Shown here: one piece after another, positions 11,765-33,581 of the stretch | How the letters are laid out: every line of letters starts with the position of its first letter | How positions within the stretch are numbered: position 1 is the first letter of the stretch | Source of the DNA: Clostridia bacterium | Lineage (GTDB): Bacteria; Bacillota; Clostridia; Oscillospirales; RGIG8002 | Length of the DNA stretch: 37,368 nucleotides | NCBI GenBank assembly: GCA_017620395.1 | Contig: JAFZQJ010000028.1 | Span: 1-37,368, forward strand | Reading direction: 5' to 3' | Made by a program: the position numbers and the translations under genes | The notes under the pieces: model-generated | Database searches by the model: none | The model's input: the letters and a program-made list of their open reading frames with translations, nothing else | Told to the model about the DNA's origin: nothing

Positions 11765-11887
11765 TTATTCTCCGGATTCTTCCTCCGGCGGAGATGCCGG
11801 GCAGGTTCAGCGCGTCGTCGGAGTTCGGTACGGACGCTTCGCCCGCGAGTCTGCGGCGGCGTCTGCGCGCGACGGCTCGCACTTGAA
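11765..11887 (-). pseudogene. Frameshifted tail fragment of an LRR membrane-anchored protein
   Basis: Read on the minus strand, this stretch encodes ARRRRRLAGEASVPNSDDAL followed by NLPGISA. That matches the cytoplasmic tail of the intact LRR protein at 14938-16662 (RRRRRLAGEANVKSGSGDAL followed by NLPGISA). After GISA the reading frame shifts, and the remaining acidic end (PPEEESGE, stop) resembles the intact PPPEDNEE. There is no start, signal peptide or repeat region: the match begins right at the stop codon of the small membrane protein. It is best explained as the last piece of a deleted or rearranged paralog. A short conserved tail kept by chance is less likely. Confidence 0.62.
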
Positions 11888-12294: not shown

Positions 12295-14715
12295 TTATGC
12301 GACGGTTATCCCGCCGTTCACCGCGACGAAGGGTACGTCTGTGTTTTCGCGATCCTTGAGGGCAGCAACATCGACAACTATATGCTTAAAACCTGACGCT
12401 CCGGACGGAATATCAAACTTCATTACAAAGAGATATTCGTAATTATTGCCCTCCTCTTTTTTGGAAGAGAGTGACGTCGTGATTGTGCCGTTCTTTGCGG
12501 TAGTATCATCCATATAAAAATTGATCTTCTCTCCGGCATTGATTTCATCATTCAAAACCGGATTCGTTTCGTAACCCTTGTAAATCAATCCGGCCGGATC
12601 AAAAAACAATTGCATACTAACCCAGTTCCATTTGCTGGCAGCGTTAACAATAATCTTGACTTCTACTCCCTTTGCGCCGGGAGCAGCTTCGACCGTCTCT
12701 ACACTGACTGTCACTTTGGCAGCCGGATCCTTAACAGTAACATTGTAGGTTGTCGTCGCACCGCCATAAGAGACCGTAAGCACTTGAGTGCCGACAATGG
12801 AGTTATCAAAACCGCTGACCATATCTACGGTCATCGGGAGCCGTTCGTTCCAACCATCGTATATAGCCATGATCGTACCACCCGAAACATCCAGTTCATC
12901 GCTGACTTTATATGCCGTCTTCGGCAAATTGACCACTACTATTCTCAATGCCGCCGTATTATTCTCTACAACGGTAATATTAAATGTAGCCTTTTTCCCA
13001 TGATATGTTACTGTAAGAGTATACGTACCGGCGGTGGAGCTGTCAAAGCCGCTGACCATATCCGCGGCGGTCATTGCGACCGTATCAGAAAAGTTGTCAC
13101 CGTAGAAAACCGTGATTTCTCCGCCGGTAACATCAAGCGCTTCGCCGATTCTATAGAGCGTCTTCGGCGGCTTGGTCACTACTATGCTCAATACCGTATT
13201 ATTCTCTAAAACGGTAATAACAAATGTATCCCTTTTGCCATGATATGTTACTGTAAGAGTATGCGTGCCGGCGGCGGAGCTGTCAAAGCCACTGACCATA
13301 TCCGCGGCGGTCATTGCGACCGTTTCGGAAGTGTTGTCACTGTAGTAAACCGTGATTTCTCCGCCGGTAACATCAAGCGCTTCGCCGATTCTATAGGTCG
13401 TCTTCGGCAGCTTGGTCACTACTATTTCCGCAAGCGTTGCGGCATGGCCGCCGTCGAGCGAGCTCGGAGTCGCCAGCTTCGCGGCGACGCGAAGGATCGC
13501 GAGGGCGTCGGAGACGGTGATCACGCCGTCGCCGTCGATATCGCAGGCGGCAAGCAACGTTTCCGTCGGCTCCGCAAGCTTCGCCGCAACGCGCAGCGCC
13601 GCGAGCGCGTCGGAAACCGTTGTTTCGCCGTCGCCGTCCGGATCGCCTTTTGTGACGGCACCGATAAGAACGAAAGGCACTCCGTTATTGATCGCATAAT
13701 TATGAGCACGCGAACCCTCGTATACCCTCAACGTCGTAGGATAATACGCTTCGCGTTCACCGTCGCCATCCTCGTCTTTCCAAGACACGAACGCCTCGTC
13801 GCCGATACCGGTGTTACGACTCAATATTGTTATGCTCTTCAAATTTGAACAGTTTTCGAACGCCCAGGCGCCGATGAAAAGGAGTGTGTCGCTTGTGTCA
13901 AGTATTTCGGCGCTCGTCAGGCCGGTGCAGCCGGAAAACGCCAACTGCCCTATGTTCACAACACCTTCCGGAATTGAAACGCTCGTCAGACCGGTACAAC
14001 CCTGAAACGTCGCCTCGCTTATGCTCCTCACGCTGCCGTCTGCGGGAATAACGCTGTTTTTGCAGCCGGCAATCAGAGACTTGTACCTCGTATCTATAAG
14101 GCAATTTCCGGAAACGTGATAGTTTGGGTTGTTTTCCGCTATCGTTATGGTTTCAAGATTCGGACATTCGGCGAACATGGCGCCTCCCGCGCTCTCCAAA
14201 CCGCTGCCTATCGAAACGGACGTCAGACCCGTGCAGCCGAAGAACAACTCATCGCCAAGCCATACCACGCTGTCGGGTATCACGACGGACGTCAGGCCGG
14301 TGCAGCCGGAAAACGCGCCATATTCAATTGTTTGGACTCCTTCGTGCAGTGCTGTGTCGGTCAGACCGGTACATCCGTAAAACGCGTAACTATATATGTT
14401 TTTAAGACTGTCCGGTATGCTGATGCTCGTCAACTCTGCGCAACCATAGAACGCATAGCACCCGATGCTTGTCACGCCCTCCGATATGATAACGCTTTTA
14501 ACGGCTCTTCCCCACGGCGCAGGATAATCCTCCCATATAAAATAGTCTTCCATTTGCCCCGTTCCGCTTATAGTCAGGACGCCGTCTTCGAGCGTCCACG
14601 TGAGATTATCGCCGCAGGTGCCGCTTTCGGCGCGGACTATCATCCCTGCCGGAAGCAAAGCGAGCAGCATCGCCGCCGTCAGTATCGCGGAAATGATCTT
14701 GGTGAGCTTTTTCAT
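12295..14715 (-). CDS. BspA-type LRR protein with internal dockerin, three Ig-like repeats and C-terminal cohesin
   Basis: 806 residues with a good GGAGGT site. It has a signal peptide (1-29), then LRR_5/BspA repeats (about 33-345) of the type AFYGCTGLT...VTSIPDSV. A type I dockerin (356-415) has two calcium loops, DPDGDGETTVSDAL and DIDGDGVITVSDAL. Three group-3 bacterial Ig-like repeats follow (about 428-505, 508-585, 588-663), the first two nearly identical. The last 140 residues (666-805) match a cohesin: a VTVSVETVEAAPGAKGVEVK opening, then MQLFFDPAGL, FVMKFDIPSGASG and a final VAVNGGITVA. Cohesins bind dockerins, so this secreted protein could both receive and be received. No sortase motif or membrane anchor is seen. 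The gene looks more AT-rich than its neighbours. Expression may be switchable (see promoter). Confidence 0.88.
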   Translation of the reverse strand: MKKLTKIISAILTAAMLLALLPAGMIVRAESGTCGDNLTWTLEDGVLTISGTGQMEDYFIWEDYPAPWGRAVKSVIISEGVTSIGCYAFYGCAELTSISIPDSLKNIYSYAFYGCTGLTDTALHEGVQTIEYGAFSGCTGLTSVVIPDSVVWLGDELFFGCTGLTSVSIGSGLESAGGAMFAECPNLETITIAENNPNYHVSGNCLIDTRYKSLIAGCKNSVIPADGSVRSISEATFQGCTGLTSVSIPEGVVNIGQLAFSGCTGLTSAEILDTSDTLLFIGAWAFENCSNLKSITILSRNTGIGDEAFVSWKDEDGDGEREAYYPTTLRVYEGSRAHNYAINNGVPFVLIGAVTKGDPDGDGETTVSDALAALRVAAKLAEPTETLLAACDIDGDGVITVSDALAILRVAAKLATPSSLDGGHAATLAEIVVTKLPKTTYRIGEALDVTGGEITVYYSDNTSETVAMTAADMVSGFDSSAAGTHTLTVTYHGKRDTFVITVLENNTVLSIVVTKPPKTLYRIGEALDVTGGEITVFYGDNFSDTVAMTAADMVSGFDSSTAGTYTLTVTYHGKKATFNITVVENNTAALRIVVVNLPKTAYKVSDELDVSGGTIMAIYDGWNERLPMTVDMVSGFDNSIVGTQVLTVSYGGATTTYNVTVKDPAAKVTVSVETVEAAPGAKGVEVKIIVNAASKWNWVSMQLFFDPAGLIYKGYETNPVLNDEINAGEKINFYMDDTTAKNGTITTSLSSKKEEGNNYEYLFVMKFDIPSGASGFKHIVVDVAALKDRENTDVPFVAVNGGITVA
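12961..13440 (-). repeat. Tandem 240-bp coding repeat (Ig-like domains)
   Basis: Two successive 240-base units (12961-13200 and 13201-13440) are nearly identical through most of their length, for example around ATGATATGTTACTGTAAGAG and the segment encoding MTAADMVSGFDSS. They encode Ig-like repeats 2 and 1. A third, diverged unit lies at about 12720-12960. High DNA identity points to recent duplication and possible copy-number change by recombination. Confidence 0.85.
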
Positions 14716-14778
14716 AATATTACCTCCGTTAGTTCACATAAACACGATAATTCTATTGATACGATTGAGTATATCTAT

Positions 14779-14810
14779 ATTATATAGTACCCCCCCCCCG
14801 AATTTGTCAA
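14779..14810 (-). promoter_or_regulatory. Promoter of the cohesin/LRR gene with a poly-G spacer
   Basis: On the minus strand, -35 TTGACA (14805-14810) and -10 TATAAT (14779-14784) are both perfect, but the spacer is 20 bases and contains a run of ten G (plus-strand C run 14790-14799). An alternative -10 TACTAT (14784-14789) gives 15 bases. Loss of three G would give the optimal 17, so the tract could set promoter strength by slippage. Confidence 0.72.
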
Positions 14811-14898: not shown

Positions 14899-14923
14899 GA
14901 AAAAAACCCCCTCTGCAGGGGGC
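14899..14923 (-). terminator. Rho-independent terminator after the anchored LRR gene
   Basis: On the minus strand the stem CCCCCT/AGGGGG with loop GCAG is followed by seven T residues, 15 bp beyond the stop codon. A-run and T-run on both sides make it possibly bidirectional. Confidence 0.88.
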
Positions 14924-14937: not shown

Positions 14938-16662
14938 TTATTCTTCATTATCCTCCGGCGGAGGGTCGGCGGAGATGCCGGGCAGGTTCAGCGCGTCGCC
15001 GGAGCCGGACTTTACGTTCGCCTCGCCCGCGAGGCGGCGCCTGCGGCGCTTGCGCGCGGCAAGCAGGATTATCAGCAGCGCGATGAGCAGAACGAGCGCT
15101 CCGGCGCCGATAAAGACGTAAAGCTTGTATTCCTCGTAAAACTCGAGCAGCTTATCGAAGAATCCGGGGTCGTCCGCCTTCGGCTCGGTTTTCTTCTTTT
15201 TGTCGGACTTGCCCCCGTCCTTCTTGGTGTCGGCGGAAGCTTCCTTGACCTTCATCTCGTAGCCGTTCTTTTTCGCGTATTTATACGCGTAGGTACCGTC
15301 GGTAACGGTCAGGACGATCCCGTCGTTATCGGCGAACGCGTAACTGCCGATAGATTCGACGTTATCGCTGAGCGTCAGCTTGGTTATGCCCGTGCGGCGA
15401 AGGGCGCTCTCGCCTATCTCCGTGACCGCGTCGGGAAGCTCGAGTCCGCCGAGCTCCTCGCAGCCGTAGAAGGCGTAGTGGCCGATGACCTTAACGTTTT
15501 TGCCCAGCTCGACGCTGCTGAGACGCGTGCAGTATTCGAACGCGCCTGCGCCGATCTTTTCGCAGTTGACGCTCACGCTCTTGATTTTTTCGCAGGCGCC
15601 GAAGGAATAGTCTCCGACCTCGGCTCCGTCCGGAATGCCGACGCTTCGCAGCTTCGGACAGCCGTAAAACGCCCAGTCGCCTATCTTTTTGACGCTGTCC
15701 GGCACCGTGACGCGCTCAAGCTCCGCGCAGCCGAAAAAGGCGCTGTCGCCTATCTGCTGCACGCCGTCGGAAATCACGACCTCTTCGATCCGTTCGTCGG
15801 CGTAAAAGACGTCCGCGACGGTCTTGACGTAACCCGGGATCTCGACCGTGGTGCGGTTGCTCCCGAGGTAGGCGACGAGCACTCCGTCGCCCAGCACGAC
15901 GAAGTCTTCGTCGGAATGCGTGGTCGTGTAAGTCGGGTAAAACGCGCGGCGCCCGATGTCTGAGAGCTTCTCCGGCACGCGCAGCACCTTCAGGTTCAGG
16001 CACCATGAGAAGGCTCCCGCGCCGACCTTTTTGACGCTGTCGGGAATGTATACCTCGCGCAGGATCTCGCAATCGTAAAACGCGTTTCTGCCGATCTCTT
16101 TGACGGAGGACGGGATGGTGACCCGCGCCAGATCCTTATTCGTGAAAAACGCGTGAGGCGCGATCTTCGTCACGCCTTCCGGTATGTCGAACTCGGTCGA
16201 ATGCGCAGGCGGATGGAGCTGGAGCGTCTTGCCCTTGTTTTTGTAAAGCACGCCGTCGACGGAGGTGTAGACCTCGTTGCCCGGCTCTACGGTGACGCTC
16301 TTCAGCCTCGTGCAGAGGCAGAACTGCTCGTCGGTTATATCCTTCATCGCCTTGGGAAGGTGAACGGTCTTTATTCTGTCGTCTTCGTTGAAGACGTTGC
16401 GGCGTATCTGCGCCGCCGGCAGTCCGCCGAGCGTTTCCGGTATCACGAGGTCGCCGCCCTTGCCGGTATAACCGACGATGAGCGCGTTGCTTCCGTTGAC
16501 TATGTAGCAGTAATCGCCGTCGTAAAGGATGTTTTCGTCCTTTTCGCCGTCCTCTCCGCGCGGCTCCGCGAAAGCGCAGAACGTACAAGCAGAAAGCGCC
16601 GTTATCAGCGCGAGCAGCAGGCACAGCAGTTTTTCGGTTGTCTTTTTCACGAAAATAGCCAT
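14938..16662 (-). CDS. BspA-type LRR surface protein with C-terminal membrane anchor
   Basis: 574 residues. The ATG has GGAG seven bases upstream. A signal peptide (about 1-32) is followed by about fourteen LRR_5/BspA repeats (about 60-440), recognisable by VTIPSSVKEIGRNAFYDCEIL-like units, then a Lys/Asp-rich spacer (about 455-490). A single membrane helix follows (about 505-532, YVFIGAGALVLLIALLIILLA) with a strongly basic stop-transfer RKRRRRRL, and a short acidic cytoplasmic tail ends in PPPEDNEE. The repeats should stand outside the membrane; BspA-type repeats typically mediate binding to host or matrix proteins. It has no dockerin or cohesin. A TATAAT lies about 54 bp upstream (16716-16721) without a good -35. 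A frameshifted copy of its tail lies at 11765-11887. Confidence 0.88.
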   Translation of the reverse strand: MAIFVKKTTEKLLCLLLALITALSACTFCAFAEPRGEDGEKDENILYDGDYCYIVNGSNALIVGYTGKGGDLVIPETLGGLPAAQIRRNVFNEDDRIKTVHLPKAMKDITDEQFCLCTRLKSVTVEPGNEVYTSVDGVLYKNKGKTLQLHPPAHSTEFDIPEGVTKIAPHAFFTNKDLARVTIPSSVKEIGRNAFYDCEILREVYIPDSVKKVGAGAFSWCLNLKVLRVPEKLSDIGRRAFYPTYTTTHSDEDFVVLGDGVLVAYLGSNRTTVEIPGYVKTVADVFYADERIEEVVISDGVQQIGDSAFFGCAELERVTVPDSVKKIGDWAFYGCPKLRSVGIPDGAEVGDYSFGACEKIKSVSVNCEKIGAGAFEYCTRLSSVELGKNVKVIGHYAFYGCEELGGLELPDAVTEIGESALRRTGITKLTLSDNVESIGSYAFADNDGIVLTVTDGTYAYKYAKKNGYEMKVKEASADTKKDGGKSDKKKKTEPKADDPGFFDKLLEFYEEYKLYVFIGAGALVLLIALLIILLAARKRRRRRLAGEANVKSGSGDALNLPGISADPPPEDNEE

Positions 16663-16775: not shown

Positions 16776-19700
16776 TCAACCGAGCGACGCGGCCTTGCGA
16801 AGGATGAGAAGCGCGTCGGAAACGGTCGGAACTCCGTCGCCGTCGAGGTCGCCGGCGATCCGGACGCGGCGGGCGGGCGTTTTCAGTCCCAGCGCGGAAC
16901 GCAGCGCAAATAACGCGTCCGCGACGGTGACTTCACCGTCGCCGTCGAGGTCGCCTTCCGCGAGCGGCTGAGCCGCTCCGACGGCGAAGACGCCGGAGGA
17001 AGCTGATTGCAGCGAAGCCTTCCAGACCTTCGCACCAGCGAGGTCATCGACGCGGATCGCGCAGTTTTCCGCGGTCGAGGTCGCGCTGCCGAGCGCGACC
17101 GATGAGGACGGATCGTAAGCCGCAAAGCCGAGCAGCTTTATCACTCGCGGGCTCTCAACGTATTCGACCGGCATGGTGTAGTTTTCCTCGTTGATGTCCC
17201 AGTAGTAATAGCCGCCGTCCGCGTCGACGTTATGGCCGAGCGACATCTCGTATTTCTCACGCGAGGCGGAGAAGCAGCGGCTGGTTATCGTTCCGTCTCC
17301 GACGGTCATATAGCGGAAAAGTCCGCTGCCGCCGTCGCGCCATCTGTACCACATCACGGGGTCCATCTGGTAGCACTGGAGCAGTTCGGTGACGTTTCTG
17401 CCGTCGTAAGCGGCGCGTGTGCGCCTCGCAACTCCCGGCTCATGGCCGCAGAGGATCAGGCGAACGTTTTCGTTATCCTGAAGGTAGGCGTTCCAGAAGC
17501 TCTCGGCGTTCACGTACTGCGTCAGGAACTCCGCCTGCGGCGTCAGGTATCCGTGGAAGCAGACAACCGCCGTGCGGTTACGGTAGGTCGAAAGCACGCG
17601 GTTCGCCCACTTTATCGTGGCGGTGGAGGTTTCGTCTGTCCAGCCGATATAGAGGAATATGAAATCCTTGCCTCCGAGGGTTATCAGGTCGTAGTGGTTG
17701 ATATTGTCGTTAAGACCGCCGCCGTACCAGGCGCATCCGCCGTAATACTTCTCGCCGAAGTATTTCTGCCACATCCTGAAATCCGGGTGCCACACCTCGT
17801 GGTTGCCGGGGAGGATGCCGTTCGGCAGACCGGTATCGTAGATGCGCTGATATATCTGCTGCGCGACGACGTATTCCTGTTCCTCGTTCATCGTGTTGAC
17901 CGTGTCGCCGGTGTTGACCATATACGCGATATCGCCCGCGAGGTAGTCGGCGGCGATCTGATCGAACTGCTCCTCCATATAGAACTGTATATCCCTGTGC
18001 CCCGTATCCCAGTCTTTTTCGATATAGTATTGCGTATCCGTCGTCCATGCGAAGGTGTCGGAGCCGTTATCGACGGTGAAAAGCCCGACGCGGAAGCGAA
18101 CGTTGCCGTTATCCGCGTAGGCGGCGGTCGGGACGTCTGCGGCGAGCGTTACGGACGGCGCGTCGACAAGCGCGTCGGCGAGCTTCACCCACTCGCCCGA
18201 GGCCGGGTCGAGCACGCTGAGCACGAGCGTTTCGCCCATGTTCGCGCCGCCGGTGAAGGAAACGGTAAAGCTTTCCTTTTCGTAACCGGAAACGTCGACG
18301 TCGAAGGTCTGCGACGGGTATTTCCCGCCGGTCGCGGAGGTCACGGAGTAGGCGGATATCGGCTCTTCGGTCACGCCGTCCGAGCCGACGGCGGTCACGG
18401 GCAGGGCGTCCGTGTAGCCGGTGAAGGTCACCGGTTCGCCGGCGGAACCGAGCAGATCGACGTCAAGCACGGCGGAGCCGCCGCTGCGCGTCACGGAGAA
18501 TTCGCCGAACGAGTCGGCGGCGGAAAGATAAAACGCGAAGGATCCCTGCGCGGTAAAGCCCGCGCGGTCGGTCGCCTTCCACGCAACACGGTGCATTCCC
18601 GCATCTTCGCCGGAAAGCGGTTTCGGAAGCGTAACGGGTATTCCGTCCAGCCGCACCTCCGTCGTTTCAACGCCGGAGGCGGCGTCGGCGATCTTCAGGT
18701 CGAGCGCCGCGCCGGGCGCGGCGACCGCGCCGTCCTCGATCGAAGAGGATACAAGATACGGCGCGGCGGAATCAAACACTGCCTTCTGCTCAAACGCCAG
18801 ACGCGTGCCGACGGTCATGCGCAGAGTGTGCGCGCCGTCGCCGTAATCGGCCGTGTCGAGCGTGCATACGGTGTTGCGGTCGCCGTAGGCGTCGATTCGT
18901 TCGGAATCGGGCGCGATCGCTTCGCCGTCGACCGTCAGGCGCGGGAAAACGCCTCCCATGGTACGCAGATTGAATTCGCGCGCTCCGGTATAAACGCCGC
19001 TTTCATCGGCGTCCCAGAGATCTTCGTGGTATTCGCGGAAAACGCTCATCGAGCCGACGTAGTAGTAAGCGTCCGCGGAAACCCCGTCTTCCGGAGTCAC
19101 GACGAAGCAGAGCGCGTTTACCCGCGGCAGATATTTCGACATAAAAAGTTCGGGATCGGCGGTGAAACCGTCGACGCATTCCGCGCCGTCCCAGCAGACA
19201 TACGCGAAGCCGTCCCCGCCTACGGGATAATCCTTTGTCTCAAACACGAAGCCTTTATCGTAATCGGCGTACAACGCCGCCGCGGACTGCCCGCGCGACG
19301 GAGTCACGGCAGCGCGGACACGGACCGAGCCGCGCAGCGGCGCGGAGGTCGAGCCGGTACCCGTCATAACACGGATACGTATCCCGTCGCTGTCGGCGGG
19401 CGAAACCTCGCCGAACGCGTTAATAGTATTTCCGGAAGCGGCAGGATCGATATGCGCTCCCTGCGCGAACGGATCGTCGAAACTCGAATCCGGCGCGCGG
19501 CAGGTCGCAACGCTGAAGCTTTCGTAATCCGAAGACGCGCCCTTCACGCGGATGCCCTTCGTCACCTCCGGCGCGGCGTCGCCGCCGTCGAATGCGGCCG
19601 GCGCCTTCACGGCGTTGATATAAACCGTCGCGAGCGCGATGCGGTTATAGCCGGAAAAACCACTCAACTCGGTAAAGATATAGCTTTCTTCCGCGCCGGA

Positions 19701-19811
19701 CGCGAAGTAAAACGCGCCGGAAACGACGGAAAACGCGATGAGCATACTACAAATCAGCGCTGTCAGACGCAGCGCCTTTTTTGTTTTAACCGAATTTTTC
19801 CCGAGCTTCAT
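16776..19811 (-). CDS. Secreted metallophosphoesterase with C-terminal dockerin (copy A)
   Basis: 1011 residues from the ATG at 19809-19811, which has GGGGGTGA upstream; a GTG three codons earlier overlaps that site. Numbers below count from the GTG. A signal helix lies at about 17-42, and an N-terminal beta-rich domain (45-260) is shared with copy B. Ig-like segments follow (about 265-440 and 440-585). A calcineurin-like phosphoesterase (588-890) has DTQ (595-597), GDT (638-640), GNHE (672-675), FHGY (His756) and CGHEPG (791-796). A dockerin ends the protein (954-1014; DLDGDGEVTVADAL and DLDGDGVPTVSDAL). It should hydrolyse phosphate esters or diesters outside the cell while docked to a cohesin; the substrate is unknown. 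The first metal motif is D-x-Q, not the usual D-x-H. It follows copy B by about 20 bp, so the two form an operon. Confidence 0.9.
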   Translation of the reverse strand: MKLGKNSVKTKKALRLTALICSMLIAFSVVSGAFYFASGAEESYIFTELSGFSGYNRIALATVYINAVKAPAAFDGGDAAPEVTKGIRVKGASSDYESFSVATCRAPDSSFDDPFAQGAHIDPAASGNTINAFGEVSPADSDGIRIRVMTGTGSTSAPLRGSVRVRAAVTPSRGQSAAALYADYDKGFVFETKDYPVGGDGFAYVCWDGAECVDGFTADPELFMSKYLPRVNALCFVVTPEDGVSADAYYYVGSMSVFREYHEDLWDADESGVYTGAREFNLRTMGGVFPRLTVDGEAIAPDSERIDAYGDRNTVCTLDTADYGDGAHTLRMTVGTRLAFEQKAVFDSAAPYLVSSSIEDGAVAAPGAALDLKIADAASGVETTEVRLDGIPVTLPKPLSGEDAGMHRVAWKATDRAGFTAQGSFAFYLSAADSFGEFSVTRSGGSAVLDVDLLGSAGEPVTFTGYTDALPVTAVGSDGVTEEPISAYSVTSATGGKYPSQTFDVDVSGYEKESFTVSFTGGANMGETLVLSVLDPASGEWVKLADALVDAPSVTLAADVPTAAYADNGNVRFRVGLFTVDNGSDTFAWTTDTQYYIEKDWDTGHRDIQFYMEEQFDQIAADYLAGDIAYMVNTGDTVNTMNEEQEYVVAQQIYQRIYDTGLPNGILPGNHEVWHPDFRMWQKYFGEKYYGGCAWYGGGLNDNINHYDLITLGGKDFIFLYIGWTDETSTATIKWANRVLSTYRNRTAVVCFHGYLTPQAEFLTQYVNAESFWNAYLQDNENVRLILCGHEPGVARRTRAAYDGRNVTELLQCYQMDPVMWYRWRDGGSGLFRYMTVGDGTITSRCFSASREKYEMSLGHNVDADGGYYYWDINEENYTMPVEYVESPRVIKLLGFAAYDPSSSVALGSATSTAENCAIRVDDLAGAKVWKASLQSASSGVFAVGAAQPLAEGDLDGDGEVTVADALFALRSALGLKTPARRVRIAGDLDGDGVPTVSDALLILRKAASLG

Positions 19812-19833
19812 TACGCTCACCCCCGTGTTTTTT

Positions 19834-22800
19834 TCAAAGCAGTCCCGCGGCGCGGCGCAGGATGCGCAGCGCGTCGCTGACGGTCACTTCTCCGTCGCCG
19901 TCGACGTCCGCGGCGAACCAGCGCTTCGCGGTCACGCCGTCGTACAGTCCGACGGACATGCGCAGCGCGGCGAGCGCGTCGGCAACTGAAAGCGCTCCGT
20001 CGCCGTCGACGTCCGCGGCGGTGAAGGACACGCCGGAAAAGACGACGTCGCGGTTTTCGGAAGCGGCGCTTCCTTTTCCGCTGACGGCGACGACGCAGAC
20101 TCTCGCGCTTTCGCCTGCGGCGCGCGGAAGCGCACCGGTATATTCTCTCACGCCGCCGTCAAGTTCGGCGAGCGTTTCGCCGTCGGCGCGGATGATGAAA
20201 CCGTCCGCCGACGCGTTATCAGGCAGTTCCCAGCGGACCGTGAGCGTGCTGTTCGCGCCGTACGCGCCGGTTATGACCGGCTGCGGCGCGGATCCGCACT
20301 CCGACGGATAGACCGGAGAGGTCACGCCGCCGCAAACGACGTACCAGAGCCCCTCGGGGAGACCGGTGAAACTCGCCGTGCCGTTCGTTACGACCGCGGA
20401 AGCCGCCTGCTCGCCTTCTTCAGCGGTGCGCGCCGTGAATGAGAAGGTTTCAACGCGGCGTTCGTTGTCGATCAGCCGGACCGGCATAGTGTAGTTTTCC
20501 TCGTCCATATCCCAGTAGTAATACCCGCCGTCCGCGTCCGGATCACGCTTGTAGACTCTGATATAATCGTCCTTCGAAATCGTGAACGTGCGGTTGGTAA
20601 GAGTTCCGTCTCCGATGGTGACGTAGCGGAACAGACCGCTGCCGCCCTCAAGCCACTGCCACCACATGTTTGACGGCGAACCCGACTGATAGTCGTGAAG
20701 CATTTCAAGCACCGGCCGCCCGTCCGAGGTATATCGGATGTTCCTGGCCGTGCCCGGCTCGTGTCCGCACATTATCATGGCCAGATTGGGGCAGTCCTCG
20801 GCGATTGCCCAGAATTTGCGGGCGGTGTTGAAAAGTATCTCGCCGTCGGTGCCGAGGTAACCGTGGACCGCAAGGATGCCCGTGCGGTTCGGATAGGCGT
20901 TGAAAACGCGGCGCGCCCACGCGGTCGCTTCCGTGTTGTTCTCCATCGTCCAGCCGAGGCAGACGACGATGAGGTCGCGGCCGCCGACGGTCACAAGGTC
21001 GTAGTGACCGCGGTTGTCGTTGAAATCGCCGCCCCACCAGTCCTGATAATCATAGTATTTCGCGCCGTAATAGGGGCACCAGTTCGTCCAGTTGGCGTCG
21101 TGATTGCCGGCGACGACTCCGTTGGGAACGTTCGCATCGTCAAGGATATTGCTCAGTTCGCGGCACTCCGCAAACATAGCCGCGTTGTTCGGCTCGTCGG
21201 AGATGTCGCCGGTATTAAGCACGTAGCCGATCTTGCCTTCGCCGTATTCCTCGACGAAAAGCCCGAACTGATCGCGTATGTAATACGTGTAATCGCGGTA
21301 GGAACCGTCCTCATAGTTATGCTGGACCATATGCTGCCCGTCGGTGCACCACGCGAACGTATCCGCGCCGTTATCTACGGAAAGCAGGCTGACGCGGAAC
21401 TTCATCTTGCCGTCGGACACGCGGTCCGCGAGCGGGGCGGCGGCGGAAAGCGTTACGCTGTTCGCCTCCATACGGGCGCGGGCGAGTTCCTCCCAGCGCG
21501 ACTCCGTTTCGTTATACACCGTCAGGCGGAGCGTTTCTCCGACGTTCGCCGCGGCGGCGGCTGAAACGTAGATCTCGTCTCCGGCAACGCCGGAAACGTC
21601 AGCTTCGAACGCCTGATACGGATATTTCTCGTCGAGAGTCACCGTCTTTGCGCGGCCGGTGAACGCCGCTTCGCCCGCGGGAGTTTTCGCGGAAAGCTCG
21701 CCGAGCGCGACGGCGTTTTCGTACGCGGTCACCGGCAAGGCTCCGCCGGCGCTGTAAGCGTAAGCCGTCACGCCGTTCGCGCCGCTTATTTCAACGGCCG
21801 CGGCGCCCGCGTCCGCGGAAAAGCCTCCGTATGAAACGCCGCTTCCGACGTTGAAGATTATCGAACCGTTTTTCGTCATTCCGGCGCAGTCGGTTATGGA
21901 ATACGTGAGCGAATGGGCTCCCGCGGCGAGCCCGGAGTAGGAATAAGGCAGCGCTATCGGAGCGCCGTCCAGCCTTACGGAAAACGCGAATATGCCGCTT
22001 TCGCCGTCTGCGGCGCGCATATCGACCGTGCCGCGCGCGGCCTGAACGCTGCCATGCGTTATGCTGCTGCGGGCAATATACGGAGGCGTGTTATCGAAGC
22101 AGATATTCTTTTCGCAAACGCGCTCGCCGTCGAGCAGCAGGCGGAAGGCGTGGTTTCCGTCGCCCGCGGCGGCGGTGTCGACGCGGTATTCTATCCTGCT
22201 CAGCCCGTAGGAATCGGTGCGGACTGTTTTTTCATAATAGACCGGCATAGGTTTGCCGTCCATTTCGAGCGCGAGCGTTCCTTCGTGCTCCGAGATGCCG
22301 GAGATCGTCACCGTTCCCCCGCAGACGTCGTCCGCGGAGACATAAACGTCGTATTCGCGGCGCTCGCGGTAAGCGCGCAGTCCGCCGACGTAGTAGAAGT
22401 CGCCCGCGTTTATCGCGGCGTCCGGAGTTATGATTATATTCAGCACGCTCACGAGCGGCAGATAATCGGAGAGGAAGTCCGCATCGTCGGGAGTTCTGCC
22501 GTCGACCGGATGCGCCTTTTCAAAAAGCACGTTCACAAAGCCGTCCGCTCCGATATCGTAATCCGGAGTCTCAAAGACGAAGCCTTCCTCGTATTCTGCG
22601 TAAACGTCTCCGGTCGACTTCCCCTTAGCCGGAGCTGTTCCGAACTGCAGACGAGCCTTGCCCGCGACCGCGGTCACGGAGCCGGAGACGCCGGTCGCGA
22701 CGCAGAAGCGAACGCCGACGCTGTCGGAGAGATCGACGCCGTCAAAAACGCCGTATGTCTTTCCGGATGCGACCGGATACAGATGCGCGCCGTCGGCAAA

Positions 22801-23115
22801 CGGATCCGCGAAGCTCGAGTCGGGCAGGCGGCAGGAGGCGATGCTGAAGCTGTTGACGCCTTCCGCCGGCTCCGTCGCCGTCACGCGCACGCTTTTGCCG
22901 AGCCCCTCCGCCGGCATTTCCACAGTCGCGGGCTGCGGAGATTTCACGCCGGAAAGCCCGACCATCGCGAGCGCAACGCGGTTATAAGAATCAAAGCCCT
23001 GCATATCCGCGCAGATATATTCGGATCCCGCCGCCGAAACAAACGGAACGGCCGCGAATATACCGGTAACCATCAGGACACAAATCAAAAAAGCAATCAA
23101 CCTTTTCGTCTTCAT
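19834..23115 (-). CDS. Secreted metallophosphoesterase with FN3-like domain and dockerin (copy B)
   Basis: 1093 residues; GGAGGTGA precedes the ATG. A signal peptide (1-28) is followed by an N-terminal domain (30-250) closely matching copy A (SFSIASCRLPDSSFADPFAD here, SFSVATCRAPDSSFDDPFAQ there) and Ig-like segments (about 255-580). The phosphoesterase domain (585-890) has DGQ (592-594), GDI (636-638), GNHD (670-673), VHGY (His751) and CGHEPG (783-788). Unlike copy A it carries an FN3-like domain (about 944-1028) before the dockerin (1034-1093; DVDGDGALSVADAL and DVDGDGEVTVSDAL). It is the first gene of the minus-strand pair and diverges from the GH16 array; a TATAAT for it lies at 23158-23163, with no convincing -35. 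The role is inferred as extracellular dephosphorylation within a docked complex. Confidence 0.9.
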   Translation of the reverse strand: MKTKRLIAFLICVLMVTGIFAAVPFVSAAGSEYICADMQGFDSYNRVALAMVGLSGVKSPQPATVEMPAEGLGKSVRVTATEPAEGVNSFSIASCRLPDSSFADPFADGAHLYPVASGKTYGVFDGVDLSDSVGVRFCVATGVSGSVTAVAGKARLQFGTAPAKGKSTGDVYAEYEEGFVFETPDYDIGADGFVNVLFEKAHPVDGRTPDDADFLSDYLPLVSVLNIIITPDAAINAGDFYYVGGLRAYRERREYDVYVSADDVCGGTVTISGISEHEGTLALEMDGKPMPVYYEKTVRTDSYGLSRIEYRVDTAAAGDGNHAFRLLLDGERVCEKNICFDNTPPYIARSSITHGSVQAARGTVDMRAADGESGIFAFSVRLDGAPIALPYSYSGLAAGAHSLTYSITDCAGMTKNGSIIFNVGSGVSYGGFSADAGAAAVEISGANGVTAYAYSAGGALPVTAYENAVALGELSAKTPAGEAAFTGRAKTVTLDEKYPYQAFEADVSGVAGDEIYVSAAAAANVGETLRLTVYNETESRWEELARARMEANSVTLSAAAPLADRVSDGKMKFRVSLLSVDNGADTFAWCTDGQHMVQHNYEDGSYRDYTYYIRDQFGLFVEEYGEGKIGYVLNTGDISDEPNNAAMFAECRELSNILDDANVPNGVVAGNHDANWTNWCPYYGAKYYDYQDWWGGDFNDNRGHYDLVTVGGRDLIVVCLGWTMENNTEATAWARRVFNAYPNRTGILAVHGYLGTDGEILFNTARKFWAIAEDCPNLAMIMCGHEPGTARNIRYTSDGRPVLEMLHDYQSGSPSNMWWQWLEGGSGLFRYVTIGDGTLTNRTFTISKDDYIRVYKRDPDADGGYYYWDMDEENYTMPVRLIDNERRVETFSFTARTAEEGEQAASAVVTNGTASFTGLPEGLWYVVCGGVTSPVYPSECGSAPQPVITGAYGANSTLTVRWELPDNASADGFIIRADGETLAELDGGVREYTGALPRAAGESARVCVVAVSGKGSAASENRDVVFSGVSFTAADVDGDGALSVADALAALRMSVGLYDGVTAKRWFAADVDGDGEVTVSDALRILRRAAGLL

Positions 23116-23289: not shown

Positions 23290-23335
23290 TAGTATGAAGT
23301 ATGTTCAGTTATTGTGGGATAGATTCGGAGGGATT

Positions 23336-26300
23336 ATGAGAAAGATCGCGGCGTTTTCGGTAATAATCGCGCTGGCGTGCTCCGTCTTTGCGGGAACGGC
23401 CTTCTTTGCGTCCGCCGTTACGGCTCAAGAGGCGATGGCCGCGGCGAAGCCCGAGCTCTACGGACTCTACACCGCGCAGAGCGCGGGTCTGCTTCGCGAC
23501 GCTTACGACAGAACCTCCGCCGCGCTCGAAGCCGGCAGAAGCGGAGCCGAAGAGGCTTCTGCGCTTTCCGCCGCTCTCGACGCGCTCGTCCCCGTCGAAG
23601 ACTACAGGCGCGGAACACTGCTCGGATTCGACGGCGTTACGGACGAAGACTTGGCCGCGATGAGACTCAACCGCGGGAGCGTTTCCGTTTCCGACGGCGC
23701 CGTTTCGATAACCGGCGAAGGAACGCTCCGTTACTGCAACGCCGTTCGCGGCGGCATCGCCGGCGGCTCGCCTTTCGGTATCGCGACGCCGGAATACGAC
23801 GGCTTCGCGATAAAAATAAACTCCGCCTCCGACGCGGCGCTCGACCTTGAAATAGGCAGACGCGGCAGTCCGGACGACTGCGTTTTCACTATTTCCGATA
23901 TATACGTTTCCGCGGGAGAAAGGTATTACCTATTCCCGTTCAGCCGTTTCGGCGACCTGCCGCTCGACGGCACGCTGAACTATATATCCCTGACCTTCAG
24001 CGGAACGCAGGAGGTCTCGTTCTCCGACCTGCACGCGGCCGCCTCATCGGACGACGCCGTCAGGCGCTCCACGACCGAAACTCCCTTGACGTCGCAGAAT
24101 TTCTCGCCGACTGCTTTTTATAAAATCCTGCAGCGCGACACCGATCTCGCGCTGACGATGAACGACACCTCCGGAGGCCAGGACCGCTTCACCTTCACCG
24201 AAAACGCGGAAAACGACGATTCGCAGCTGTGGCAGATATGCCGCGATCCCGTTATGACGTCGAGATTCAGGATAACGAACAAGAAGTTCGGTACTTCGAT
24301 AGCGAAAGCTCCGTCCGGTGATATGACTCTCAGCGCAAAGGTCGCCGACTACACGGATGATTTGCAGAAATGGTCCTGCTCCTACAGCAGGACAAAGGGA
24401 TTCCACTTTTATCTCAGCGGCGTCGGCAAGCTGAGCTACAGCGGCACTCACGCCCGCTTCGCCGGCCCCGGCACGGCAACAAGATATTTCGACGTCCTCT
24501 GCGCCGGTGATGAAGAGTGGACGCAGGTCTGGAGCGACGAATTCGACACGCTCGACCGCAGCGTATGGTACGTCGTGAACTCCAAGAACCGCGGCGATAC
24601 CGAGCCGATGTTCAACCGCGACAGTCCGAACAACGTATATACGGAAAACGGCAACCTCGTCATCAAGACGATAAAGGAAGATTATCGCGGCTACCACGCC
24701 ACAAGCGCATACCTGACCACCGAGGACAAGATCCATTTCTCCTACGGCAGATTCGAGATGCGCGCCAGGCTCCCCGAAGGGCGCAAGATCTGGCCGGCGT
24801 TCTGGCTGATGGGCGACGACAACGTCTGGCCCTACTGCGCGGAGATCGACGTCGTCGAAGCAGTCGGCTCCGGCCCCGACGACGACTGGCTCGGCGACCG
24901 GCGCTCCATCGCGACGTTCCACTACTGCAACGCCGGGAATCACTACGAGATCGGCGGATGGAGCGACTTCAATATCCTGACGCACACCGAGAAACTCTCG
25001 GAAAACTACCATATTTACGCTGTCGAATGGGAATACGACCAGATACGCTGGTATTTCGACGATACGCTTTACCTGACTGTCAACGTCGAGGGCGACGCGC
25101 TGAAAAACGCCCTGCAGGAAAACCCGATGTTTATGATACTCGACACCTCCATCGAAGGCCCCGGCAACAACCGTCTGCCCGATGGAATGCCCGACGAGGC
25201 TTATTTCTATATCGATTATATCCGCTACTGCAAGCCCTCGACATCGGCGGCGCCCGCGGACAGTTTGCCGTATGAATACGTCAGCAGCTCCCCCGATTTT
25301 CATCAGATCATCTGGTCGCCTGCAAACGTAGGCGCGGTCAACATTGAAAAAAATATGTTCGTCTATAACGACGCCGCCTGCAACACGAGCGTTTTCAACC
25401 TGACGGAGATGAAGCGCGTTGCTTTCAGAAACCTCACGCAGTCCGGCTGGACGATGGCAAGCGCGGTCTCCGCCGACGGAAGCACACTCGCCTTCGGCAG
25501 GCAGAGCAGGTTCACGGTATGCGACTCCAATCTCAACGTGCCTTATAACGAAGACGCCCCGCTTGAATTCCCCGCGCTCGCGCTCAGCAACGACGGCTCG
25601 CGGCTGTACTACGGCGGCGTGCCAAGAAGCAACGGCGAGGAATTCGCTGAACGGTTCCATATTTACGACACCGTGAATATGCAATGGCTGAGCAGCGAAT
25701 ACACCGGCAGCTGGGTGGATTCCATCGCCGTCCGCGACGACGACGTCTACGCCTACGGCTGCTTCAACGGGCTCGTGCGCGTGCGCTCCGCAAGCGGCGG
25801 AGATCTCGGAGAATTCAACGCGGGGGGCAGAGCGCTTTCGCTCGCGTTTTCGCCCGACCGCAGGAAGCTCTACGCCGCCTGCGGCGATCAGAAGATATAC
25901 GTTTATGATATTGAAACCCGCTCCGCTCGCGTATTCGCGTCATGCGGGGACGAAATCTACCGCGTCGCCGTTTCGCCCGACGGAACGCGCGTTACCGCCG
26001 CCTGCGGAGACGCCTGCGCTCGCGTTTACGACACCGCGACGGGGCGGCTCGTCGCGCGTCCCTGCCTCGGCGACCTCGCGGTGACCTACGTCGACTACTC
26101 GCTCGACGGCAAGCTGCTCGCGCTCTGCGGTCTCGACGCCAAAGTCGGCGTCTACCGCGCTGACGACGGACTGCCGCTCGCGCTTCTGAGCAACACCGAC
26201 AGCACATGCTGGTACAACACCGTCGCGATCAGCGCGGATAATACCTCGGTCATGGCGATACGCGGCGTGGAAAACTTCAACTCCGCCGTTTCCGGCTGGA

Positions 26301-26722
26301 AGCTCCCCGCCGACCTGCTCCCCGCGGACGGAGGCGACTCATCCGCGCTGGACGCGCTTCCCTGTTACGACGAAACCGCATACACTCCCGAAAGCTACGC
26401 GCCTTACGCCGCTGCGCTGAAAAACGCGCACGCGGTCAGGGCGAACAGATACTCCTCGCAGTCCGATATCGACTCGGCGGCCGCCGCCGTTTCCGCCGCG
26501 GCCGAAGGGCTCGTTGAGCTTGATTACATGAAGGGCGACTTCGACTTTGACGGCGAGATCACCGTTTCAGACGCGCTCGCCGCGCTCCGCATCGCCGCGA
26601 AGCTCGCGGACGAAACGCCGGAAAGCGTTCTTATCGGCGACATCGACGGCGACGGACACGTCACCGTTTCCGACGCGCTTGCGATACTCCGCGTAGCCGC
26701 CAAACTTGCAGACGCGCTTTAA
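23336..26722 (+). CDS. GH16 glycosidase-propeller-dockerin protein, copy 1
   Basis: 1128 residues from the ATG at 23336, which has CGGAGGGA upstream. An earlier in-frame ATG at 23294 lies at the promoter start site. It has a signal peptide (1-30) and a FIVAR-like segment (about 33-86). A beta-sandwich-like region (95-235) ends NYISLTFSGTQEVSFSDLHA, and a trefoil-like region (257-390) carries QLWQI. GH16 (394-634) has the catalytic EIDVVE (503-508) and FGRF/WPAFWLMG context. A WD40-like propeller (651-991) has repeats such as VSPDGTRVTAACGDACARVYD. FIVAR (1003-1061) and a dockerin (1065-1128) end it. GH16 enzymes cleave beta-1,3/1,4-glucans or galactans with retention; the motif with an extra residue is laminarinase/lichenase-like. 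It is secreted and presumably cohesin-bound. First gene of the array. Confidence 0.9.
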   Translation: MRKIAAFSVIIALACSVFAGTAFFASAVTAQEAMAAAKPELYGLYTAQSAGLLRDAYDRTSAALEAGRSGAEEASALSAALDALVPVEDYRRGTLLGFDGVTDEDLAAMRLNRGSVSVSDGAVSITGEGTLRYCNAVRGGIAGGSPFGIATPEYDGFAIKINSASDAALDLEIGRRGSPDDCVFTISDIYVSAGERYYLFPFSRFGDLPLDGTLNYISLTFSGTQEVSFSDLHAAASSDDAVRRSTTETPLTSQNFSPTAFYKILQRDTDLALTMNDTSGGQDRFTFTENAENDDSQLWQICRDPVMTSRFRITNKKFGTSIAKAPSGDMTLSAKVADYTDDLQKWSCSYSRTKGFHFYLSGVGKLSYSGTHARFAGPGTATRYFDVLCAGDEEWTQVWSDEFDTLDRSVWYVVNSKNRGDTEPMFNRDSPNNVYTENGNLVIKTIKEDYRGYHATSAYLTTEDKIHFSYGRFEMRARLPEGRKIWPAFWLMGDDNVWPYCAEIDVVEAVGSGPDDDWLGDRRSIATFHYCNAGNHYEIGGWSDFNILTHTEKLSENYHIYAVEWEYDQIRWYFDDTLYLTVNVEGDALKNALQENPMFMILDTSIEGPGNNRLPDGMPDEAYFYIDYIRYCKPSTSAAPADSLPYEYVSSSPDFHQIIWSPANVGAVNIEKNMFVYNDAACNTSVFNLTEMKRVAFRNLTQSGWTMASAVSADGSTLAFGRQSRFTVCDSNLNVPYNEDAPLEFPALALSNDGSRLYYGGVPRSNGEEFAERFHIYDTVNMQWLSSEYTGSWVDSIAVRDDDVYAYGCFNGLVRVRSASGGDLGEFNAGGRALSLAFSPDRRKLYAACGDQKIYVYDIETRSARVFASCGDEIYRVAVSPDGTRVTAACGDACARVYDTATGRLVARPCLGDLAVTYVDYSLDGKLLALCGLDAKVGVYRADDGLPLALLSNTDSTCWYNTVAISADNTSVMAIRGVENFNSAVSGWKLPADLLPADGGDSSALDALPCYDETAYTPESYAPYAAALKNAHAVRANRYSSQSDIDSAAAAVSAAAEGLVELDYMKGDFDFDGEITVSDALAALRIAAKLADETPESVLIGDIDGDGHVTVSDALAILRVAAKLADAL

Positions 26723-26738
26723 GGAGGAAACGAATCCG

Positions 26739-29700
26739 GTGAAAAAACTGACGGCGGCCGTTTTGATCGCGGCTTTAATATGCGCCTGTTTCTCCGGCGG
26801 CGCTTTCACGGCGGCCGCGGATTCGCTCGACCGCGCCATGAGTACGGCAAAGCCGGAACTCTACGGATTATACACGCTGCAGTCCGGAAACGCCCTGCGT
26901 GACGTATATGATCGCGCAGCGGCAACAAAAGCGGCCGGCGGCACCGACGCCGCGCTTGCTGCCGCGCTGCGAAACGCGCTCGGCGGACTTATCCCGCTCG
27001 AAGATTACGGACGCCTCGAACTCGGCGGGTTCGGCAACGTGACAGACGCCGATATCGCTGGGATGAAGCTGAATTCCGGCTCCGTATCCTCCGCCGCGGA
27101 CGGCGCTATCACGCTCTCCGGCGAAGGAACGCTGCGCTACTGCAACGCGGCGCGCGGCGGGATCGCGGGCCCCGATCCCTTCGGCGCAGTTTCGCCATAC
27201 GCGGACGGAATCGCGCTGAAGATCGATTCTTCCGCTGACGCGTCGCTCGACGTTGAGATCGGGTCGCGCGGCGAAAACCGCTCCGTCTATACGATTTCGG
27301 ATATCGCGGTCTCTTCGGGCGAGCGTTATTACTTCTTCCCCTTCAGCCGCTTCGGCTGTCAGCCCGACGAAACGTTCAATTACATCTCGCTGACCTTCAC
27401 CGGCGCGGACGAGGTATCCTTCTCCGACCTGCACGGCGTCGCGGGAGCGCTCGACGGCACGCGGAAAGCGGAGTATTCCGAAACGCCCGTCACGCCGCAG
27501 GCGCTTGACGGCGGCGGATACTTCAAACTGCTGCAAAAAGGCACTTCGCTCGCGCTGACGATGCTTACTCCCGCAGATACCGGCGACAGATGCTGCGTTT
27601 TCGCCGATGACGACCCGAACGACGACAGTCAGCTCTGGCTGATATGTCCCGACCCCTCCTCCTCCAACGCGGTGCGCTTCATAAACAAACACTACGCCTT
27701 CGCTCTCCGATGCGACCCGAACATCGGATCGACCATATCGGCTTCGCGGCCGAATCTCACCGAACCCGAGCAGGTTTTCAACTATTCTTATAACAAAGCC
27801 CGCGGATTCTCGTTCACTGTTTCGGGTAATCAGCGTCTCTCTTATACCGAATCATCATTAAAGTTCGTCTCAATGACCGGCGGGATCAAATACTTTGAGA
27901 TCGTCTCCGTCGCCGCGCCCGAATGGAGCACCGTATGGAGCGACGAATTCGACGGCCGCGCTCTCGACAGAAACGTCTGGAACGTCAGGGACGGAGTCGT
28001 TGACGGCGGCGAGAACTGCTACGCCTTCCGCGACAGCGAAGAGAACGTCTATCTGCAGAACGGAAATCTCGTGATACACACCTTCGAGGGAGAGTACCGC
28101 GGGCGCCCCGCGACAAGCGGGCACGTCAGCACCGAGGATAACGTGCAGTTCGGCTACGGCAGGTATGAATTCCGCGTGAAAATGCCGCACGGACAGGGGA
28201 TATTCCCCGCGCTCTGGATGATGGGCAACGACGACCTGTGGCCGCTGACGGGCGAGATCGATATTCTCGAAATGGTCGGATCCGGCCCGTCCGACGGCTG
28301 GAGGGACGACAAAAAAGCAATCGCCACCTTCCACTATGCCGACGAAAACGGCGAGCACCGCGAGATCGGCGGCTACTCGACAAACGGTTTTCTCTACTGC
28401 CCGGAGCGTCTTTCCGAGGATTATCACGTATACGCCGTTGAATGGGAAAAGGATCAGCTGCGCTGGTACTTCGACGATATACTTTATCTGACTGTCAACG
28501 TCGAAGACGCCGCGCTCGCCTCCGCGCTGCAGGAAAACCCGATGTACATACGCATCAACGTTGCGCTGCACGGGCCCGGCGACTATCAGCTGCCCGAAGA
28601 TATGGCCGAGGCGTTCACGTACGTCGATTACGTCCGCTATATGAAGCCGCGCTCTTCGGCGGCGCCGCAGGACGGAATAAAATTCGACCGCGCGATTCCG
28701 ACGTATGATTTCAGCCGGGAGTTCTGGTATCCTGCCAATGCCGGAGCCGCTGACGCCGCGCAGGATAAAATGCTGTATGCAAGCGGTTCTTCCGCGCTCA
28801 AGATATTCAGCGTCGGGGATATGAGCGAGCTTTACAGCGCCGAGATCGGCGGCGACCGGTACTGGATAAAAAGCTGCGCTTTATCCGCGGACGGCAGCCG
28901 CGCGGCTGCCGGATACACCGGCGGCGTCGCGGCATACAACGGCAGATTGAGCATAAGCGCCAAAACCGACTTCGCTTCAAACTCGCCCGTTGTCGCGTTA
29001 AGTCCCGACGGCTCGCGCTGCTACGCCGGCGGACAACCTAACGACTCGAGCGGTTTCTGCGATTACTTTTACGTTTACAATGCGTCGAATATGCGCTTGA
29101 TCAAGAGCGAATACACCGGCAGCTGGGTGGACAGCATAGCAGTCCACGACAGCGGCGTTTACGCCTACGGGTGCTTCGACGGCACCGTGCGCGTGCGTTC
29201 CGCTTCCGACGCCGACCTCGGCGGTTTCACCGCGGGCGGCAGAGTGATAAGCATCGCCTTCTCTCCTGACGGAAAGAAACTCTACACCGCCGACGGCGGA
29301 TGCAATATTTACGCTTACGATATCGAAAGCGGCACCGCGTCGCTCCTCGCCTCGCTCGGCGACGAAGTTTACCGTATCGCCGTTTCGCCGGACGGAACAC
29401 GCCTCGCCGCCGCCTGCGGCGACTCCTGCGCGAGAGTCTACGACCTCGCGACCGGACGGCTCGCCGCGCGCCCCTGCCTCGGCAGATTGTTCGTCACCGC
29501 AGTCAATTATTCCGTCGACGGCAAGCTTCTGCTTCTCGGCGGTACCGACGGCAAGATCGGCGTTTTCCGCGCCGACGACGGGCATCCGCTCGCGCTGCTG
29601 ACGGAAAACGACAGACCGCGTTGGTTCGACACCGCCGTCATCTGCGCGGATAACTCCGCCGTCATGTCGATACGCCGCATTTACGACTACCGATCCGGAC

Positions 29701-30131
29701 CGATCGCGTGGACGCTTCCGTCCGATCTCATACCCGCCGACGGCGGAGATCCCTCCGCGCTGGACGCGCTTCCCTATTACGACGAAACGGCCTACACCGC
29801 CGAAAGCTACGCGCCTTACGCCGCCGCCCTGAAAAACGCACACGCGGTCAAGGTGAACAGATACTCCGCGCAGGCGGTCATAGACGCCGCCGCGCAGGCG
29901 CTTTCCGACGCCGAGTCCGCGCTTGAAGAAAAGACAGTCAGGGGCGACCTCGACGGCGACGGCGAAGTCACCGTCTCCGACGCGCTCCGCGCCCTCCGCT
30001 TCGCGGCGGGGCTTTCCGAGCCGGACGAAAACGCTCTTCGCTCAGGCGACGCTGACGCGGACGGCGAAATAACCGTGTCCGACGCGCTCGTGATACTCCG
30101 GGTCGCCATTGGGTTGACAAGCACACTCTGA
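26739..30131 (+). CDS. GH16 glycosidase-propeller-dockerin protein, copy 2
   Basis: 1130 residues from a GTG at 26739 (VKKLTAAVLIAALICACFSG). AAGGAGG overlaps the stop codon of copy 1 and lies 11 bases upstream. The frame opens at an ATG inside copy 1, but that gives a charged extension before the signal peptide. The domain order is as in copy 1. GH16 starts near residue 396 (EWSTVWSDEFDGRALDRNVW), with the catalytic EIDILE at 506-511. The propeller includes SPDGTRLAAACGDSCARVYD, FIVAR is YYDETAYTAESYAPYAAALK, and the dockerin loops are DLDGDGEVTVSDAL and DADADGEITVSDAL. The predicted role is the same as copy 1; cleft loops after the catalytic motif differ, so substrate details may too. It is transcribed with copy 1. 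Confidence 0.9.
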   Translation: MKKLTAAVLIAALICACFSGGAFTAAADSLDRAMSTAKPELYGLYTLQSGNALRDVYDRAAATKAAGGTDAALAAALRNALGGLIPLEDYGRLELGGFGNVTDADIAGMKLNSGSVSSAADGAITLSGEGTLRYCNAARGGIAGPDPFGAVSPYADGIALKIDSSADASLDVEIGSRGENRSVYTISDIAVSSGERYYFFPFSRFGCQPDETFNYISLTFTGADEVSFSDLHGVAGALDGTRKAEYSETPVTPQALDGGGYFKLLQKGTSLALTMLTPADTGDRCCVFADDDPNDDSQLWLICPDPSSSNAVRFINKHYAFALRCDPNIGSTISASRPNLTEPEQVFNYSYNKARGFSFTVSGNQRLSYTESSLKFVSMTGGIKYFEIVSVAAPEWSTVWSDEFDGRALDRNVWNVRDGVVDGGENCYAFRDSEENVYLQNGNLVIHTFEGEYRGRPATSGHVSTEDNVQFGYGRYEFRVKMPHGQGIFPALWMMGNDDLWPLTGEIDILEMVGSGPSDGWRDDKKAIATFHYADENGEHREIGGYSTNGFLYCPERLSEDYHVYAVEWEKDQLRWYFDDILYLTVNVEDAALASALQENPMYIRINVALHGPGDYQLPEDMAEAFTYVDYVRYMKPRSSAAPQDGIKFDRAIPTYDFSREFWYPANAGAADAAQDKMLYASGSSALKIFSVGDMSELYSAEIGGDRYWIKSCALSADGSRAAAGYTGGVAAYNGRLSISAKTDFASNSPVVALSPDGSRCYAGGQPNDSSGFCDYFYVYNASNMRLIKSEYTGSWVDSIAVHDSGVYAYGCFDGTVRVRSASDADLGGFTAGGRVISIAFSPDGKKLYTADGGCNIYAYDIESGTASLLASLGDEVYRIAVSPDGTRLAAACGDSCARVYDLATGRLAARPCLGRLFVTAVNYSVDGKLLLLGGTDGKIGVFRADDGHPLALLTENDRPRWFDTAVICADNSAVMSIRRIYDYRSGPIAWTLPSDLIPADGGDPSALDALPYYDETAYTAESYAPYAAALKNAHAVKVNRYSAQAVIDAAAQALSDAESALEEKTVRGDLDGDGEVTVSDALRALRFAAGLSEPDENALRSGDADADGEITVSDALVILRVAIGLTSTL

Positions 30132-30139
30132 CGGAGGCG

Positions 30140-33529: not shown

Positions 33530-33581
33530 TAACGGCGGCACGCCGCCGAAAAGATAATGCAAACCAAAGGAGAGACTCAGT

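Follow-up and report, generated by a model that had tools for sequence, protein, structure and literature searches.

How is a single secreted protein to be understood that carries leucine-rich repeats (LRRs) together with both a dockerin and a cohesin? The question is raised by a gene on the minus strand (12295..14715) of a 37,368-nucleotide stretch of Clostridia DNA (assembly GCA_017620395.1, contig JAFZQJ010000028.1), referred to here as the window. We call this gene and its product the target, and the genome under study (1.93 Mb, 98.7% complete) G000.

The open reading frame encodes 806 amino acids in the order LRR-dockerin-3xBig_3-cohesin, and all coordinates given for its parts lie on the minus strand. 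It starts with MKKLTKIISAILTAAMLLALLPAGMIVRA, from which a signal peptide can be read (residues 1-30; 14626..14715), and the structural model places a helix at residues 2-19. BspA-type LRRs (LRR_5) occupy approximately residues 74-345 (13681..14496; Pfam E 2.7e-50) and appear in the model as regular short strands. They are followed by a type I dockerin at residues 354-415 (13471..13656). In the Pfam search of the whole protein Dockerin_1 (PF00404) matches residues 356-407 with 23.9 bits, the cut-off being 22.9, and two Ca-loop/helix repeats, DPDGDGETTVSDALAALR and DIDGDGVITVSDALAILR, are present. Three Ig-like Big_3 domains, found by the same search (E 5.9e-36, in three stretches) and in the model, cover approximately residues 425-662 (12730..13443) and lead to the C-terminal cohesin at residues 667-806 (12298..12717), which ends in VNGGITVA directly before the stop codon. 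Because these last residues belong to the cohesin, the target is without an anchor; Pfam reported no SLH match, neither a sorting signal nor a C-terminal membrane helix was found, and the protein falls outside the anchoring scaffoldins. In the full-length model the Ig domains, the cohesin and most of the LRR region are of fair to good confidence and the dockerin is of low confidence (pLDDT 37-53), for which reason we make no statement on contacts between modules. The initial annotation had described one secreted protein with LRRs, a cohesin and a two-loop dockerin at residues 356-415, and the single reading frame, signal peptide, Pfam matches and fold bear this out; its module list left out the three Big_3 domains between dockerin and cohesin.

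The Pfam scan of the whole protein reported no cohesin, and phmmer with the module as a single sequence found no match among the PDB sequences. Residues 667-806 alone reach 25.6 bits against PF00963 (cut-off 24.1, E 1.6e-5, 139/139 positions), and the module also lies over the cut-off in the genome-wide search with this profile (24.7 bits). A profile built from 36 cohesins matched 44 PDB sequences, all of them identifiable from their name or entry as chains of cohesins or scaffoldins, with 6kgc as the best (1.6e-18). The AlphaFold (AF2) model of the module (pLDDT 96.2, pTM 0.89) retrieved 6kgc_A in Foldseek at E 1.6e-10, the listed matches all being cohesin entries, and VIA-align superposed the two over 135 residues (Z 17.9, rmsd 2.3 Å). 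This best structural match is CohA2, a type I cohesin of Clostridium acetobutylicum, which differs from the target cohesin in sharing 25% identity with it; we know of no LRRs in the scaffolding protein from which CohA2 comes. The target cohesin is thus a divergent one, whose relation to the family is visible by profile and by fold and not by single-sequence search. The initial annotation had called residues 666-805 a cohesin and had named a missing PF00963 match or a different fold as what would speak against this; the profile matches, the fold is that of a solved type I cohesin, and the module can be securely predicted to be a type I cohesin with a well-formed jelly roll.

Does such a chain of modules exist as one gene? 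In a sister species (G002) the locus has the same gene order and includes a 762-aa orthologue of the layout LRR-dockerin-Big_3-cohesin that holds two Big_3 domains, against three in the target. Since module order and place agree, the target is not an assembly chimera, and an assembly error or frame fusion was ruled out on the same ground. An apparent second copy at the end of a sister-species contig (C86) was rejected as well, because an identical overlap of 141 bases joins C86 to C65 and the supposed copy is the tail of the same gene; on C86 a broken dockerin relic lies between genes, after the cohesin of the orthologue (L118 12936-13062). In the sister species LRR-dockerin genes flank the orthologue on both sides, whereas G000 is without them. 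Two further species of the genus lack the target at the equivalent place: in G001 the next gene after that of an LRR-membrane protein is the counterpart of the one at window position 10134, and in G003 an unrelated gene comes next. The closest named member of the genus is a MAG from water-buffalo rumen, RGIG8183, which identical match coordinates indicate to be G003. The target is therefore dispensable. Downstream of it, at 11786..11871 on the minus strand, lies a relic that corresponds to the 3'-terminal part of the LRR-membrane gene (81.7% identity to 14967-15058).

When the target is compared with its orthologue (window 12295-14715 against L117 35-2323), the divergence is uneven along the gene: dS is 0.083 in the LRRs, 0.96 in the dockerin, 1.30 in the first Big_3 domain and 0.011 in the cohesin, beside 0.58-0.72 in three neighbouring genes. 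By these distances the gene is a mosaic with an old middle and with LRR and cohesin ends that appear to have been exchanged recently, a pattern that resembles recent exchange combined with module swapping. One of the GH16 genes of the window (26706-30131 against L117 17136-20000) has a dS of 0.117 among neighbours at 0.6-0.9, which likewise suggests recent exchange.

A rival reading of the protein is that it is one more LRR subunit carried into the complex by its dockerin, with a spent cohesin that binds nothing that matters. Nine of the 64 dockerin proteins of G000 contain LRR_5, the LRR-dockerin paralogues that flank the gene in the sister species are without a cohesin, and recombination relics are abundant in the region, all of which would suit such a cargo protein. 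The fold and the family signature of the cohesin are intact, however, and this segment is nearly identical in the two species in spite of the divergence of the three neighbouring genes. The near-identity is no proof of selection, because recent exchange could explain it. Taken together, we regard a spent cohesin as unlikely.

The surroundings of the target point to a cohesin-dockerin complex. Upstream of it lies the gene of the LRR-membrane protein, a secreted LRR_5 protein (Pfam) with a C-terminal membrane helix and no dockerin (14938..16662, minus strand). Farther upstream on the same strand lie the genes of a metallophosphoesterase-type protein with a C-terminal dockerin (16776..19820) and of its paralogue (approximately 39% identity), again with a C-terminal dockerin (19834..23115). 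On the plus strand, four GH16 proteins stand in tandem (window 23294-37103), each with WD40-like propeller repeats between catalytic domain and dockerin and each with an ExDxxE motif: EIDVVE (23294..26722), EIDILE (26706..30131), EIDVLE (30140..33529) and ELDIIE (33582..37103). The window hence holds six other dockerin proteins, one fewer than the seven initially counted nearby; the initial figure of at least four GH16 proteins among them agrees with the four found.

Genome-wide, 78 dockerin stretches were counted in G000, which in the regions fetched fall into 74 reading frames. Cohesins occur in six proteins, the target included, and two of these have a C-terminal membrane helix. Cohesin and dockerin are combined in a protein with two cohesins and a dockerin (L017 15643-18042), in one with a cohesin and a dockerin (L017 13250-15589) and in a cohesin-Big_2-dockerin protein (L020 8018-8992). 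The candidate acceptors at the cell surface are a protein with two cohesins and a C-terminal membrane helix preceded by LPVAG (L018 11001-13640) and one with a single cohesin and a membrane helix (L019 10724-11863); the genome has two sortase matches. The domains borne by dockerin proteins include GH16, GDSL lipase/acylhydrolase, CBM_4_9, Y_phosphatase3 and LRR_5. A search of G000 for GH48, the exoglucanase that in a classical cellulolytic cellulosome bears a dockerin, gave no match, and the control genomes likewise gave none. Next to both cohesin-dockerin scaffoldin genes of L017 lie two GDSL/SGNH esterase-like proteins with N-terminal dockerins (L017 9507-12466, G000:C8).

Proteins with one dockerin and one cohesin are a named class, the monovalent adaptor scaffoldins, and the target chain has exactly this pair, by the published definition of the class (PMC11557425). 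Given that the genome encodes approximately 74 proteins with dockerins and six with cohesins, two of the latter membrane-anchored, a monovalent adaptor is the best reading; the target is probably such a scaffoldin extended by a BspA LRR module, working in a surface cohesin-dockerin complex of this uncultured Oscillospirales-type bacterium. The internal dockerin would plug into one of the cohesins of a scaffoldin that is anchored or has several of them, the C-terminal cohesin, spaced out on the three Ig domains, would receive one dockerin protein, for instance a GH16 enzyme, and the LRR face may bind a substrate, a host ligand or a ligand of a neighbouring cell. In this manner the target would add a binding function at no cost in docking positions. 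Support comes from the frequency of cohesin-plus-dockerin proteins in the order, from the presence of the gene at the equivalent location in the sister species, and from the commonness of LRR-dockerin proteins in G000 (9 of 64); the dockerin segment has a dN/dS of 0.12 against the sister species. An adaptor had already been proposed in the initial annotation, and that part of it which concerns the definition of one dockerin and one cohesin, and the presence of anchored cohesin proteins in the genome, stands; the docking itself we infer from the modules.

Which partners the two docking modules would choose is harder to read. Positions 10-11 (V-[SAN]) and 17-18 (L-R) recur in both repeats of nearly all of the 67 strong dockerins; the target dockerin has V-S/L-R in both repeats, and three other adaptor proteins show the same pattern. 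As judged from these residues, adaptor and enzyme dockerins form one sequence class, and therefore neither the direction of docking nor self-binding is readable from sequence; an assignment of partners by dockerin specificity classes was dropped, adaptors and enzymes being inseparable. A dockerin and a cohesin on one chain also invite the idea of a self-polymer, in which dockerin and cohesin of successive copies pair and the resulting head-to-tail chains display the LRRs. Equivalent recognition segments (V-S / L-R) are present in each of the two dockerin repeats, and in the model the three Big_3 domains appear long enough for intermolecular docking. Yet its recognition residues are the same as those of many enzyme dockerins, which gives no indication of a private self-interaction; binding to itself would moreover compete with enzyme loading, and no further sign of self-binding was found in the protein. 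We consider such chains decidedly unlikely.

On the cohesin side, identity is 29-35% to the L017 and L018 cohesins, 23% to that of L020 and 16% to that of L019. With identities of no more than 29-35% to the cohesins carried by the other adaptors and two-cohesin proteins of G000, the target cohesin may have an unusual partner or none. In the microarray experiments on Ruminococcus flavefaciens FD-1, most of the tested dockerins from LRR proteins did not bind the tested cohesins (PMC5301203). A distant cohesin together with a dockerin of the common class could also make the target a regulator of composition, which takes up docking positions of enzymes and puts an LRR subunit with another socket in place of an enzyme, thereby altering which dockerin proteins are held. 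A composition-changing role has been published for ScaC-like adaptors (PMC5301203; PMC11557425), and a possibly variable promoter, discussed below, would suit a switch of this kind. What speaks against it is that G000 has no clear second dockerin class that the target cohesin could select, and we hold this role to be very improbable.

With the monovalent adaptor as the preferred reading, how unusual is the addition of LRRs? Cohesins occur in 176 of 394 genomes of the order. Many of the 102 cohesin-encoding reading frames collected in the genus and the order combine cohesin and dockerin; these frames were drawn from strong cohesin matches, so that counts of architectures among them are not frequencies. 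Pfam confirmed LRR_5 in three cohesin proteins outside the genus: LRR_5-Coh-Doc (L115, G333:C9; 1774 aa), LRR_5-Flg_new-Big_2-Coh-Doc with nine Flg_new repeats (L136, G104:C7; 1413 aa), and LRR_5-Coh-metallophosphatase-nucleotidase-SLH, which has no dockerin (L089). LRR_5 with cohesin and dockerin is thus rare and not unique, being present in two other genomes of the order in a different layout. Like the target, L115 and L136 hold BspA LRRs, cohesin and dockerin on one chain; unlike it, they carry an adjacent C-terminal cohesin-dockerin pair and no Big_3 spacer. A scan of genome contigs with the dockerin-Big_3-cohesin segment found no relative. Long proteins that end in a cohesin-dockerin pair are common across the order, and in several of its genomes (L087, L093, L096, L101, L111 and others) a cohesin-ending gene adjoins one in which such a pair lies close to an end.

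LRR-dockerin proteins as such are common, with 28 LRR entries in R. flavefaciens FD-1 (PMC2930009). These resemble the target in being secreted and in joining LRRs to a dockerin, and differ in that the architectures listed there have no cohesin. The initial view that scaffoldin modules are not combined with BspA LRRs was too strong in the light of L115, L136 and these LRR-dockerin proteins. ScaC and other adaptors of R. flavefaciens, as the published text presents them, resemble the target in that their secreted, anchorless chain bears a single dockerin and a single cohesin of type I-like character and that anchored scaffoldins accompany them; that text describes them without LRRs or Big_3 domains, whereas in the target the dockerin is internal and the cohesin C-terminal. 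We found no published description of the triple of LRR, dockerin and cohesin in the main text of papers, and the publications found on BspA with cohesin and dockerin were engineering papers. Those found on LRRs with the two modules were known cellulosome papers, in whose text this architecture was not seen. What is new is best filed as an LRR module added to a monovalent adaptor scaffoldin, a known class.

The expression of the target may be unusual too. A terminator-like hairpin (14907..14922, minus strand) follows the upstream LRR-membrane gene, and the target is therefore probably its own transcription unit. After the hairpin come, in this order, TTGACA-AATTC-G10-TAC-TATATAATATAG and a GGAGG site. 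The putative promoter TTGACA-AATTC-G10-TAC-TATATAATATA (14776..14810, minus strand) contains a homopolymer of ten G between the -35 and -10 hexamers (14790..14799, minus strand). A standard promoter scan did not list it, because the spacing to TATAAT is 20 and the scan covers 16-18. Runs of at least 8 G or C are very rare, with one in the 609 kb of fetched sequence and three in the whole of G000. In G003 the sole such run of the genome is again a G10, located between TTGACA and TAGAAT (L236/L228, G003:C126:16202-16232), directly after the LRR-membrane gene and before a gene different from the target. Related promoters of the sister species G002 have tracts of G6, G6 and G6AG3; two of these promoters precede LRR-dockerin genes, and the remaining one a gene with a target-like start. 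The region upstream of the G002 orthologue of the target is unrelated to that in G000. A promoter family TTGACA-A/T-rich-polyG-TA..AT can thereby be described (window 14776-14810, L236/L228, L117 5238-5261, L118 12833-12857, L246), with tracts of 10, 10, 6, 6 and G6AG3 before LRR-dockerin and other genes, as a candidate for phase variation; the reversed control pattern had no match anywhere.

Phase-variable promoters with a poly-G spacer exist, for example that of Neisseria porA, and the target promoter is like this type in placing a G homopolymer between the -35 and -10 hexamers. It differs in how it is known, as the tract lengths are compared here across consensus assemblies of different species, and homopolymer lengths in metagenome-assembled genomes can be wrong. 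Phase variation is suggested by the rarity of G runs of at least 8 in G000 and by the 6-10 G carried in related promoters of the genus. It is possible, and we propose it tentatively, that slipped-strand events add G to, or remove it from, the run of ten that separates TTGACA from TATATAAT, which would shift the promoter spacing and switch the target on and off, and that LRR-dockerin paralogues in the genus are controlled likewise. To our knowledge, no poly-G phase-variable promoters have been described in cohesin-dockerin genes.

If the function is as we infer, gut Clostridia would use cohesin-dockerin plugs to build LRR adhesin-like surfaces besides assembling enzymes, and the adaptor would bring in an extra binding module without consuming a docking position. 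Among the parts that are still candidates, the possibly variable promoter is the most interesting. Should it be phase-variable, some cells of a clone would include the LRR module in their surface complexes and others would not; we know of no earlier sign of cell-to-cell variation in the composition of such complexes.
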